In this document: positions 17,062-58,396 of the stretch, piece after piece
How the letters are laid out: each line of letters begins with the position of its first letter
Numbering within the stretch: the first letter of the stretch is position 1
Assembly: GCF_032854445.1 (NCBI RefSeq)
Contig: NC_088301.1
Location: forward strand, 49,835,187-49,899,186
Direction of reading: 5' to 3'
DNA: 64,000 bases
DNA from: Liolophura sinensis
Taxonomy: Eukaryota > Mollusca > Polyplacophora > Chitonida > Chitonidae
Notes under the pieces: generated by a model
Database searches by the model: none
Told to the model about the DNA's origin: nothing
What the model saw: the letters and a program-made list of their open reading frames with translations, nothing else
Made by a program: the position numbers and the translations under genes

Positions 17062-17701
17062 CTCCATTCCCTCTGCTGTAGGATACACAACCATACCCAC
17101 TGTAGTCAGATCATCTCCTGCAGGATACACAACCATACCCACTGTAGCCAGGTGATCTCCTGCAGGATACACAGCCATGCCCACTGTAGCCAGGTGATCT
17201 TCTGTAGGATACACAACCATCTTCACTGAAGCCAGTGATCTCCTATATCATACACAAACATGTGCACTGTAGGCAGGTGATCTGTTGTAGGATACATATC
17301 CATGTCCTGATTTCTTGCATTATACACACATGTCCACTTTAGCCAGGTGGTTTTCTGTAGGATACACACATGTCCACTATAACCAGGTGAGTTTCTGTAG
17401 GATACACACATGTCCACTTTAGCCAGGTAATCTCCTATAGAATACACAAACATCTCCACTATAGGCAGGTGATTTCCTGCAGGATACACACATGTCGACT
17501 ATAGCCAGGTGATTTTCTGTAAGATACACATGTTCACTACAGCCAGGTGATTTTCTGTAGGATACACACATCTTCACTGTAACCAGGTGATCCCCTGTAG
17601 GATACATACATGTCCACTGTAGCCAAGTGATTTCCTGCAGGATACACAAATGTTTCGGACGCATAAATATGGGCATTTTTGCCAGGTGATTTCTTGTCAG
17701 A
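17062..17701. repeat. Minisatellite, ~15 units of 42 then 40 bp
   Basis: The unit reads roughly 'ggatacacaaccatgcccac' followed by 'tgtagccaggtgatctcctgta'. Starts at 17081, 17123, 17165 and 17207 are 42 bp apart. After a short irregular unit near 17290-17320 the spacing becomes 40 bp (17320, 17360, 17400, 17440, 17482, 17522, 17560, 17600, 17640, with single 42- and 38-bp exceptions). A 13-C run precedes it at about 17047-17059. The repetitive minus-strand peptides (MVVYPAGDHLATVG-like) change frame repeatedly and are not a gene. Confidence 0.93.
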
Positions 17702-23144: not shown

Positions 23145-24095
23145 TTAACACTGGAATGGCCCAAAGCTGTTGAGCTCTGAGATCGGTGTTGGATGTCTTG
23201 TCCATTCCACTACCTGGGAAACTGATACAACCCAGACATCGTCCATCTGGGACAGTTTTTTCAAGGAACTGTTCCATGGCGGTCAGAACATACGGCTCTC
23301 GCTGAAACCATCTTGCATGGACAAATATACCTAACGGTGCCCTGTTTGTAGTATAGTGCCGGAGGAAATTGTCCCTGAGGTATTTTAGTGCCATTTGCGG
23401 GGTTCTAGTTGGGGTGCAGGCATCTGCCATTGAACAAGCGCGTGCGTCATTGCCGTAGAGTCGAATAAGAGGAACCTCCCACAGTCCACGATAAGACTTT
23501 GAAGGTCGCGGTTCCAGACTGCTGTATTTCCAGTCTATTGGGTAGTCAAGTGTGAAGGGCCAAAGGGGTGGTCTTTTGTCTCGAAACAGATGCCCGGTAA
23601 GCATGGATGAGTCGTACATGTAACCGTAATCTTGCAGCATTTTGTACTGGTTGTCTCCGCCAATCTGCAGGAAGGGAACTCGCATACCCTTAATGTCACG
23701 GTAAGGGATGCCAGCTTTCTTAACTAGCTGTTTCCTCATGCCTTCAATTTCGTCCTTGTAATCTTCGTAGCTGGCGGCAGCCCACCAAGAATGAGGGAAA
23801 CGGTGGGATTTACTGTGCGATGCGATTTCATGGCCGCGCTTGTAGAGCTCCCGCACCTTAGAGAAGTCCGTCGCCACTCCAGACACGAAAAACGTTCCCT
23901 TTATAGGACATCCGTTAGGGTTATTTCTGCCTTTTGTGAAGAGTTTCCTAAAGTAGGGGAAGTTGTAAACACTGACTTCGTCATCAAACGTCAGCATGAC
24001 CATCTGCGGGACCTGCTTTACCGGAAGGCCGCCGGGGATGTCATTTCCTGGGCAGCGACATAACGGCAGAGGACACTTACGGGCAGTGCATTCAC
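23145..24095 (-). CDS. Chitin deacetylase-like gene A, exon 2 (CE4 domain), frameshifted
   Basis: This exon encodes the whole polysaccharide deacetylase (CE4/NodB) domain, which in this family removes acetyl groups from chitin. The acceptor is 'gtttttgccacag' at 24096-24097. The exon starts in phase 1 and joins exon 1 (29787) as a GGT codon. A Cys-rich lead (C-x4-C-x4-CRCPG) precedes the domain. CE4 motifs in the joined protein are TFDD (about 329-332), HSKSH (387-391, both metal histidines present), MRVPF, YDSSM and GIFVH. By alignment with gene B, translation should end at the TAA at 23145-23147 after FQC. However, the A run at 23256-23261 has six bases where gene B's frame implies five, so the uncorrected frame runs 137 residues into unrelated sequence (to 22843). 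Removing one base makes the joined coding length an exact multiple of three (about 609 residues). The shift is either an assembly or sequencing indel or a true lesion. The opposite-strand frame at 23791-24063 is a shadow. Confidence 0.93.
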
Positions 24096-27360: not shown

Positions 27361-27690
27361 GAAAGTTAGGGATCTGAAGCGAAGACCTCACTGTTTTTGG
27401 GTTAGTGGTTTGAAGGAAAGACCTCATTATTCAAGGATTATTGGTTCGATGGGCTGACCTCATTGTTCAAGGGTTAGTGGTCTGAAGAGAAGACCTCATT
27501 GCTCAAGGGTTAGTGGTCTGAAGGGAAAGCCTCATTGTTCAAGGATTATTGGTTGGATGGGACGACCTCATTGCTCAAGGGTTAGTGGTTGGAAGAGGCC
27601 TCATTGTTCAAGGATTATTGGTTTGATGGACTGACCTCATTGTTCACGTGTTAGTAGTCTGAAAGAACGACCTCATTATTCAACGGTTCT
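27361..27690. repeat. 36-bp minisatellite with alternating subtypes
   Basis: The anchor 'acctca'/'gcctca' occurs at 27385, 27421, 27457, 27493, 27529, 27565, 27598, 27634 and 27670. Every step is 36 bp except one of 33 bp. Through much of the array a 'caaggattattggttcgatg' subtype interleaves with a 'caagggttagtggtctgaag' subtype, giving a partial higher-order period of 72 bp. More decayed relatives extend left to about 27100. Confidence 0.93.
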
Positions 27691-29786: not shown

Positions 29787-30666
29787 CTGATACAGGGGGT
29801 AGTTTCTGCTGGACAGGTGCTCTCTGCGGCATTTTAGCGGTTGTAGTGGTCACTTGTGGTCTTGTAGTGCGTCGTTCCCACCATTTTCTTTTTCTTGTAG
29901 ATGGTTCTTCTGATCGTACTGTGGTTTTACCGACACGGTTTTGGTTCTCCTTTAGCTTCTTTTCTCTCCAAGCCACCTGAGGGGTTCTCGGGGTCGGTCG
30001 TACGGGTCGGGGTTGTATTTCTTCCTCTTTCCACCCAGTTGTTGCGTGCCATGGTGCCTCAGTGGGTGCCACTGTGGGCGCGCCGTCATAACGAGTCGTT
30101 CTCTGGATATCTGTGGTGGTAATCGGTGCCCACGGATCAGACGGTGTCCATGTAAGCCTTTGAGATTCGTCCTTGATGTCTGGCATGGCTGTTGCCCATC
30201 CGTTCTGTGCTAATTGTTTATGCTGAGGTTTGGCTTCCTGTCTTGGTGGAGGTGCCATCGTCGGTGGCCTGGTTCTCTGAACGGGTCGCCGTGTGGTACG
30301 ACGAGCTCGCGTCCTCCAGGAGTCGGTAGTCCGGTACGTCGTGGATGGGTACATTGTAGGGGGCTCATCATTGCTGGCGGCTCGGTTAATGGGAACGTTT
30401 AGCGGTGGAACCATTACCCTCTCTTGGAAGTCACAGGTGGACTTTTCGGGCCAGTCACAATTACTTACTCTCATGTTAAAATGCAATCCTGGTGGGCAGT
30501 GGAATTCGTATTCATACCCTGTAACACAGATAAGAAATGTCGAAGGATCGCCTTCTTTGCACACATACTTGTTTTCTATTCCACCACAAGGAAGCCGGGT
30601 TTCGGCGACTGAGAATAATGTCAGAATGGCGAAAAGAGTCGAGGAGGCCACCGTTTCGACAACCAT
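29787..30666 (-). CDS. Chitin deacetylase-like gene A, exon 1 (signal peptide, CBM14-like domain)
   Basis: First coding exon of gene A, 293 codons plus one base, ending at the donor G|gtatgt (29787/29786). Residues 1-23 form a signal peptide with a TLFAILTLFSVA core, so the product should be secreted. Residues 27-78 form a peritrophin-A/CBM14-like chitin-binding domain with six cysteines (27, 36, 47, 57, 70, 78) and the typical CPPGLHFN...CDWP core. The spacing of the second cysteine is unusual (8 residues after the first, 10 before the third). The rest is a basic linker rich in Thr, Pro and Arg. It contains QLAQNGW, PSDPWAPITT and RTPQVAWREKK, all three also found in gene B. The start is the first Met before the signal peptide, about 190 bp downstream of where a TATA box would place transcription. 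Frames on the plus strand here are shadows. Confidence 0.93.
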
Positions 30667-53677: not shown

Positions 53678-54639
53678 CTATGATGTCTTCTTACACTGAA
53701 ATGCCTCAAACGTCTTGAGATCTGCTAACGGTGTAGGCTTTCTTGTCCACTCGATGACTTGCGATACGGTCAGAAACCAGACATCGCTGAGTTGAGTTAG
53801 TTTCTCTATAAACTCTTGCATTGCATCCAAGGCATGCGGTGTCTGCTTAAACCACGAGGCATGGACAAAAATTCCCAAAGGCGCTCGGTTTTTAGTGTAA
53901 TGCCGGAGAAAATTGTCTCGAAGGTATCTGAGAGCCATTTTTGTGGTTTTAGTTGGGACACATGAATCTGCCATTGAACATGCCCTACCGTCATTCCCAT
54001 ACAGTCGAGCAACGGGAACCTCCCACAAACCTGGATAGGACTTCTTTGGTCTTGGCTCCACGCTGCTATACTTGCAATCTACCGGGTAGTCAAGAGTGAA
54101 TGGCCAGACTGGAGAACGTTTGTCTCTCAACAAATGACCAGTGACCATAGAGGAGTCATACAAATAATTGAAGTCCTGTAGAACTTTGTATTGGTTGTCA
54201 CCTCCAATTTGCAAGAATGGTACTCTCATGCCCTTGATGTCAGCATAAGGAATGCCAGCTTTTATCACAAGTTCCTCTCGCATACCTTCTATTTCGTCCT
54301 TAAAATCATTATAGGTGGCTGTTGCCCACCACGAATGGGGGAATCGATAAGACTTACTGTGAGATGCAATCTCGTGGCCCATGTCATACAACTCCTTGAC
54401 TTTTCCAAAGTCGGTTCCCACCTTGGAAACGAAAAAGGTGGCTTTTATTGGGCATCCGTTGGGATTGGTTCTATCCTTTGTGAAAAGTTTACTGAAAAAT
54501 TGGAAATTTTCGTCGTTAACTTTGTCGTCGAAGGTAAGCATTATCATCTGAGGGACTTTCTTAACAGGTAGACCTCCAGGGATGTCTGGTCCAGGACACC
54601 GGCATGCTGGCAACTTGCATTTGTCTTTGGGACATTTTG
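53678..54639 (-). CDS. Chitin deacetylase-like gene B, exon 2 (CE4 domain)
   Basis: Complete CE4/NodB deacetylase exon, open to the stop at 53678-53680. The acceptor is 'ctgattttcag' at 54640-54641. Phase 1 joins exon 1 as a GCA codon and gives a 568-residue protein. A Cys-rich lead (KCPKDKCKLPACRCPG) precedes the domain. CE4 motifs are TFDD (284-287), HSKSY (342-346), MRVPF, YDSSM and GIFVH. The second histidine of the usual H-x3-H metal pair is Tyr346 (codon TAT, 54347-54349). Gene A has His here, so B may bind metal poorly or have a binding rather than catalytic role. PVDCKYSS also carries a Cys where gene A has Trp. The two domains are about three quarters identical by eye. The carboxy tail ends FEAFQCKKTS, four residues beyond gene A's expected end. 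Opposite-strand frames are shadows. Confidence 0.95.
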
Positions 54640-57651: not shown

Positions 57652-58396
57652 CTTTGTTGACAGTGAGATTTTCTGCTGCTTCGGTTACTGTTGGTTTCGG
57701 TGTGGTCGATTTCACTTCTATTCCGTTTTGTTCCACAGCTTTCCTCTCCTTCCAAACTATTTGGGGTGTTCTGGGCGTTGAGCGCTTCTTCCACGGAGGC
57801 TGAGTAGGTTCCACGGCCGTCGTGATCGGTGCCCACGGGTCTGAAGGCCCACGGATGAGACGATGGTCATATCCAGCTGTTGTCTTCCTGGTTCTCCAAC
57901 CGTTGTCCGTCAGCTGACCGTGCCTAGGTTTCATAGTCGGTCTCGGTGTAACCTTTTTAGGTTTCCATGCAGGTTGGAACCAGCTTTGTGTTGTTTTCCG
58001 GGGTCTTGGCCACCAGGGGGCTGTTGTGGTGGTCGGTTGTGTCCACCAGGGCGATGTTGTGGGCATACGTCTTGGCCACCATGCAGATGTCGTTGCCATT
58101 TGCCAAGATATATAGTCATCATCCTCATCATCGTACAGGGGCATGTTTTCAGCTTCTAGGTCTTCTTCGTCTAGATCGCAAGATGCCTTTCCAGGCCAGT
58201 CGCATATACTGACTTTTGCATTAAAATGTAACCCAGGAGGGCACTGGAATTCATATTCGTATCCATATGTGCATATAAGAAACGTGGATGGGTCGTCTTC
58301 TTTGCAGACGTAGATGTTCTCATAGCCACCACAAGGCAATCGAGCAACAACCGTAGAAGTACTGACGAAAAATGCAACCAAAATAGATCGCATCAT
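57652..58396 (-). CDS. Chitin deacetylase-like gene B, exon 1 (signal peptide, CBM14-like domain)
   Basis: First coding exon, 248 codons plus one base, ending at the donor G|gtacgt. Residues 1-18 are a signal peptide (core ILVAFFVSTSTVVA, likely cut before RLP). Residues 22-73 are the CBM14-like chitin-binding domain with cysteines at 22, 31, 42, 52, 65 and 73 and the core FQCPPGLHFN...CDWP. The shifted second cysteine is the same as in gene A. An acidic stretch (DLDEEDLEAE, YDDEDDD) follows, which gene A lacks. Then comes a linker with repeated tryptophan pairs: SAWWPR, SPWWTQ, APWWPR. The islands QLTDNGW, PSDPWAPITT and RTPQIVWKERK match gene A. The product is predicted to be secreted. The frame running past the donor (to 57623) is intronic. 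The start is the first Met of the frame. A second Met follows directly. Confidence 0.93.

Follow-up and report, generated by a model that had tools for sequence, protein, structure and literature searches.

A CE4 chitin deacetylase homologue of the chiton Liolophura sinensis with tyrosine in place of a metal-binding histidine

Pseudoenzymes of the CE4 family are already known (PMC5855634, PMC10967932). Among them, ECU11_0510 (2vyo) and BA0150 (4m1b) combine the NodB fold with an incomplete set of catalytic or metal-binding residues and are held to be inactive, and BA3943 (7bkf) counts as a NodB pseudoenzyme by its PDB title only. Here we analyse gene B, a CE4 gene in a stretch of 64,000 nucleotides from the chiton Liolophura sinensis (NC_088301.1, positions 49,835,187 to 49,899,186; hereafter the window). 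Like these proteins its product has the NodB fold with an incomplete set, but it lacks one metal ligand only, whereas ECU11_0510 is devoid of both histidines, the base Asp and the Arg, and BA0150 of the whole Asp-His-His triad. In the silkworm chitin deacetylases BmCDA1 (5zns/5znt) and BmCDA8 (5z34) the Asp-His-His zinc triad is kept, whereas gene B has Asp-His-Tyr; set against both, it has in addition a CBM14 domain and a long linker rich in Trp, Pro and Thr. BmCDA1 requires a chitin-binding partner protein. The kind of protein, a CE4 pseudoenzyme, is thus known, but a protein in which a single metal-binding His is exchanged for Tyr while all other motifs are retained, with a His-bearing tandem paralogue alongside, was not found in the literature searched. 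The same literature yielded no report of Tyr at the second motif 2 histidine of any CE4 protein, which is no proof of absence.

The source assembly was published as Liolophura japonica (PMC11068029), a species name later corrected to L. sinensis (PMC12441733). The version analysed here comprises 609,464,459 bases in 632 contigs, and the window is located on a contig of 60,359,117 bases.

Gene B and its altered metal site

Models of gene B and of its paralogue A, which lies in the same window, were built from sequence by means of homology, splice signals and open frames, with signal peptides judged by eye (Table 1). Gene B has two exons, and its frame continues across an intron bounded by GT and AG. 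In the CE4 domain (residue 1 being codon 54613-54611) codon 89 reads TAT on the minus strand, which gives the motif HSKSY. Tyr89 sits at the column of the second metal-binding histidine of motif 2 (H-x3-H), while the first, His85, is kept. At the aligned column gene A has CAC and the motif HSKSH. Across the 271 residues read in A's first frame, the two CE4 domains give a gapless alignment with 77% identity.

A sequence-only reading of this DNA had placed Tyr at a metal-binding His position of gene B, with the remaining motifs intact and the gene open over its full length, and these observations hold. The CE4 frame spans 322 residues without a stop and is flanked on either side by GT/AG splice signals. 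TFDD of motif 1 includes both the catalytic base Asp29 and the metal ligand Asp30; R-x-P-F-L, S-M-A-D-S and F-V-H are intact as well, and according to the alignment Arg130 (motif 3), Asp216 (motif 4) and His251 (motif 5) are kept, so that B agrees with the silkworm enzymes at six of the seven catalytic positions. Gene A, the reference in that reading, does keep HSKSH but is not undamaged, as a one-base frame shift leaves its last ~36 CE4 residues in another frame. A first structure model of gene B, based on a two-row alignment, was poor (mean pLDDT, the predicted local distance difference test, 52.2). A second model was used instead, in which motif 4 falls in a low-confidence stretch (206-219).

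Active CE4 enzymes have two metal-binding histidines in motif 2, of which gene B retains one. Because of this feature gene B is not filed as a CE4 enzyme, despite its fold and descent; the combination of a NodB fold and the loss of a metal residue would fit a CE4 pseudoenzyme. The three metal ligands are located at Asp30, His85 and position 89, and as the last of these is now Tyr, only an Asp and one His are left. The zinc site is therefore expected to be lost or weakened, as is the hydrolysis of N-acetyl groups. His93, four residues past Tyr89, was considered as a substitute ligand and rejected, since the paralogues A and C also have it; it aligns with Gln125 of BmCDA8 in the +1 subsite.

HiFi consensus errors are mostly errors of homopolymer length, not substitutions, and codon 89 lies outside any long homopolymer run. 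A base-calling or assembly error at this codon is accordingly very improbable, even if the assembly was built on only 14x HiFi coverage (PMC11068029) and the paralogues A, C and O show one-base frame breaks that are perhaps assembly indels.

Catalytic residues across the CE4 family

A search of the same genome for CE4 domains returned at least 30 matching pieces, which were merged into 25 domain copies; one with an internal stop (C6:52.398 Mb) was excluded, and 24 domains were read. All seven catalytic positions are retained in 11 of them, whereas in the other 13, among them B, at least one has been lost. The losses differ in extent: besides B, only paralogue M (C3:8.035 Mb) lost a single residue, the motif 5 His, and each of the other 11 degenerate domains lacks at least two. 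Three of the 13 are near-identical copies. The motif 3 Arg is present in all 24 domains. Gene B therefore appears as a mild case of a wider loss of catalytic residues in this CE4 family, with about half of the domains affected, and its treatment as an isolated case in the sequence-only reading could not be upheld.

In the tree of these domains a minimum of six changes between intact and degenerate labels is needed, at least three of which are forced by well-supported branches. Catalytic losses have therefore probably occurred more than once. Genes A to E fall together with BmCDA1 and BmCDA8 on one side of a branch with support 100/99, which argues for common descent of gene B with these insect-type chitin deacetylases; the silkworm proteins are the sole other animal sequences in the tree, and its midpoint root serves for drawing only.

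Column 89 was compared across this one chiton genome, the two silkworm enzymes and eight bacterial relatives. It holds His in 13 of the 24 chiton domains, Thr in three (near-identical copies), a gap in two, and Tyr, Gln, Pro, Val, Gly and Asn once each. When only the 12 domains that retain the six other catalytic positions are considered, 11 have His and B alone has Tyr, which goes beyond a chance difference. Both silkworm enzymes have His at this column. A bacterial scan yielded 22 distant relatives. A motif 2 string was recognised by pattern in 20 of these, and the fourth-next residue was His in 20 of 20, a weak result, as the scan patterns favour His. The eight relatives that were aligned all have His at column 89.

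These comparisons bear on the altered chemistry that the sequence-only reading had named as an alternative, with gene B still encoding a metalloenzyme in which the phenolate of Tyr89, or a water molecule in a two-ligand site, completes the coordination sphere and the metal, the pH optimum or the substrate differs. The retention of Asp29, Arg130, Asp216 and His251, which a plain loss of catalysis does not require, would be accounted for, and the metal set is indeed variable, as there are MurNAc deacetylases without the usual motif 1 metal Asp (PMC5855634). However, His is found at column 89 in all 11 chiton domains that keep the other six residues as well as in the silkworm and aligned bacterial sequences, the inactive proteins that a review classes as unknown lack these histidines (PMC5855634), and the passages covered by the literature search contain no active CE4 enzyme with Tyr at position 89. 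We thus consider a working metal site in gene B improbable.

Several other features of the family were observed. The CE4 loci read are spread over contigs C3, C6, C7, C8 and C9. Three genes have two CE4 domains in one open frame: in L011 and L018 one domain is intact and one degenerate, while in L014, with a frame of 1646 residues, both are degenerate. Paralogue M (L019:7212-8153), the second single-loss case, keeps six catalytic residues, with Arg replacing the His of motif 5; the ratio of nonsynonymous to synonymous substitution rates (dN/dS) of M against paralogue K is about 0.28-0.37, so this pair is less constrained than A and B. Three near-identical degenerate copies, two of them identical as proteins, lie 31-34 kb apart (L022, L023 and L024; C6:39.27, 39.31 and 39.34 Mb) and may stem either from tandem amplification in recent times or from duplication during assembly. 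Outside animals, insect-type chitin deacetylase homologues with 32-35% identity occur, rarely, in metagenome-assembled genomes of Lentisphaerae and Kiritimatiellae (L029, L030, L031), possibly through lateral transfer or binning error. Among 197 genomes of the class to which L029 belongs nothing but L029 itself matched at E 1e-10, and a scan of a viral collection found no relative.

Constraint since the duplication and the role of gene B

Of 94 fourfold sites, 65 differ between genes A and B, as do 77 of 307 residues if the end of A is translated in the frame that it has there. The maximum-likelihood estimates are dN 0.148 and dS 2.58, corresponding to a dN/dS of about 0.06, with dS being rough owing to saturation of the synonymous sites; for the same reason the NG86 and YN00 pairwise estimates gave no usable value and were dropped. 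A and B are thus old duplicates. Counts of lineage-unique residue changes in A and B are 20/14 with C as outgroup, 14/9 with D and 10/10 with E (chi-square at most 1.1, none significant), and gene B evolves no faster than A.

The 55 columns conserved to at least 90% in ten intact chiton domains and the two silkworm enzymes hold only two of 76 A-B differences, where 13.9 are expected (P 5e-6). These two are V24I and H89Y. Conservation of column 89 in this set follows from the selection of intact domains. When the seven catalytic columns are left out, one of 75 differences falls in conserved columns against 12.2 expected, and with columns 80% conserved over all 24 other rows, an unselected set, it is one of 76 against 15.3. 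Column 89 drops out of the conserved columns in unselected sets, since the His is missing from several further domains as well. Since the conserved columns are spared, both copies have been under purifying selection for most of their history, with the metal ligand as the sole radical break in B, and the state of gene B is not the outcome of long decay.

On balance, it is reasonable to propose that gene B is a retained chitin-binding CE4 pseudoenzyme or a badly impaired enzyme, and we hold this to be probable, with a substantial margin of doubt. As the protein retains its fold and a large part of the substrate cleft, it most likely still binds chitin chains. It would also most likely play a structural or modulating role as a chitin-binding protein in a chitinous matrix such as the radula, the shell or girdle cuticle or the gut lining, and would perhaps compete with or guide active paralogues. 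Chitinase-like proteins, which are catalytically dead GH18 proteins such as the insect IDGFs, offer a parallel in that a chitin enzyme fold is kept as a chitin-binding matrix protein; the likeness concerns the proposed role, the enzyme family being unrelated. The earlier suggestion of a non-catalytic chitin-binding paralogue agrees with a CBM14 domain that is intact, with the loss of a metal ligand and with the number of other CE4 domains in the genome that are degenerate. The exchange at position 89, the intact remaining motifs, the plan of two domains and the purifying selection since the duplication are established, whereas we infer the loss of activity, the kept chitin binding, the tissue and the role.

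Three points weigh against this proposal. It is a little surprising that Asp29, Arg130, Asp216 and His251 are all still present after a loss of catalysis, though less so if the change is recent, if these residues serve binding, or if some activity remains. Moreover, Tyr89 is known from the assembly of one species. Finally, the constraint tests pool both lineages and span the whole time since the duplication, and H89Y is undated relative to them; as we read them, they say nothing about constraint after this change. The earlier claim that gene B is retained and not decaying is therefore borne out by the saturated synonymous divergence with low dN, by the rate of B and by the protected columns, but only for a history that is undated relative to H89Y. 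Likewise, the dN/dS check proposed for B gave a low value, but one that is pairwise and joins both lineages.

H89Y may accordingly be recent, either a segregating allele or a first step of decay of B in L. sinensis, with no selected non-catalytic function as yet. The change is confined to one catalytic residue out of seven and may have taken a single C-to-T step from CAT to TAT (A has CAC), the published heterozygosity is 1.24% (PMC11068029), and constraint over the older history is compatible with recent relaxation. On the other hand, the frame, the splice signals, the CBM14 match and the conserved columns of B are intact and there is no excess of changes in B over A, although neither observation dates the change. 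We regard a recent origin as unlikely, yet as more plausible than a surviving metal site.

The setting of gene B comes close to a natural single-site experiment: a fold under selection in which one metal ligand has been swapped, with a close paralogue that keeps the ligand beside it. Together with the other degenerate domains, gene B offers a way to test whether chitin deacetylases became structural chitin-binding proteins in molluscs. A chitin deacetylase-like protein with two NodB domains occurs in the abalone shell matrix (PMC6003135) and a minor secreted one in limpet shell (PMC3374290), the respective passages being silent on the catalytic state. A far more speculative idea, which we consider very unlikely, is that Asp-His-Tyr coordinates a harder metal, for example Fe(III), and that B is a chitin-anchored matrix protein that helps to place iron oxide on radular chitin. 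It was prompted by the chemistry of the residues, by the acidic patch of gene B and by the finding that ferrihydrite is deposited on the radular chitin of a chiton (PMC6351634). The main text of this chiton radula proteome paper contains no mention of 'deacetylase'. If the idea is true, the CE4 fold would have been put to a new use in an animal group that mineralises its teeth with magnetite.

Gene models and further features of the window

Table 1. Features of genes A and B and positions of frame breaks in CE4 paralogues
Feature	Position	Strand	Details
Gene B exon 2 with CE4 (NodB) domain, including the stop codon	53678..54639	-	acceptor ...TTTTCAG|CAAAATG; PF01522 E 5.4e-9; silkworm chitin deacetylases E 4.1e-67 and 1.7e-63
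TAT codon, Tyr89 of gene B CE4 domain, for second metal-binding His of motif 2	54347..54349	-	codon read and alignment
Gene B exon 1, signal peptide (by eye), CBM14, acidic patch, Trp/Pro/Thr-rich linker	57652..58396	-	PF01607 E 5.2e-10; donor ...CAAAG|GTACGT
Gene B acidic patch DLDEEDLEAENMPLYDDEDDDYISW	58103..58177	-	surplus of 13 D/E over K/R in 25 residues
Gene A exon 2, CE4 domain (HSKSH), frame shifted by one base past domain residue ~271	23145..24095	-	acceptor ...CCACAG|GTGAATG
Gene A exon 1, signal peptide (by eye), CBM14, linker	29787..30666	-	PF01607 E 8.1e-10; donor ...ATCAG|GTATGT
Frame break, gene A	window ~23255		
Frame break, gene C, within motif 2	L013 ~4921		
Frame break, gene O	L021 ~6090		

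The product of gene B is probably secreted, judging from its hydrophobic start. A third copy, gene C, is located ~55 kb past the window on the opposite strand (C7:49.954 Mb). Like B, both A and C consist of a CBM14 exon and a CE4 exon; unlike B, they keep the His, contain a one-base frame break in the assembly and have no acidic patch. In gene B this patch adjoins CBM14. The best 25-residue stretch in exon 1 of gene A has only 4 more D/E than K/R, against 13 in B, and the absence from C was judged by eye from its exon translation.

The frame breaks of A, C and O, three otherwise well-kept paralogues, lie in or adjoin short homopolymers and may be either assembly indels from the 14x HiFi data or real damage. 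The Trp/Pro/Thr repeats in exon 1 of gene B include a tandem array (58003-58081). Elsewhere in the window there are minisatellite arrays at 17072-17653 and 27365-27688, with units of 40-42 bases and 36 bases, respectively.
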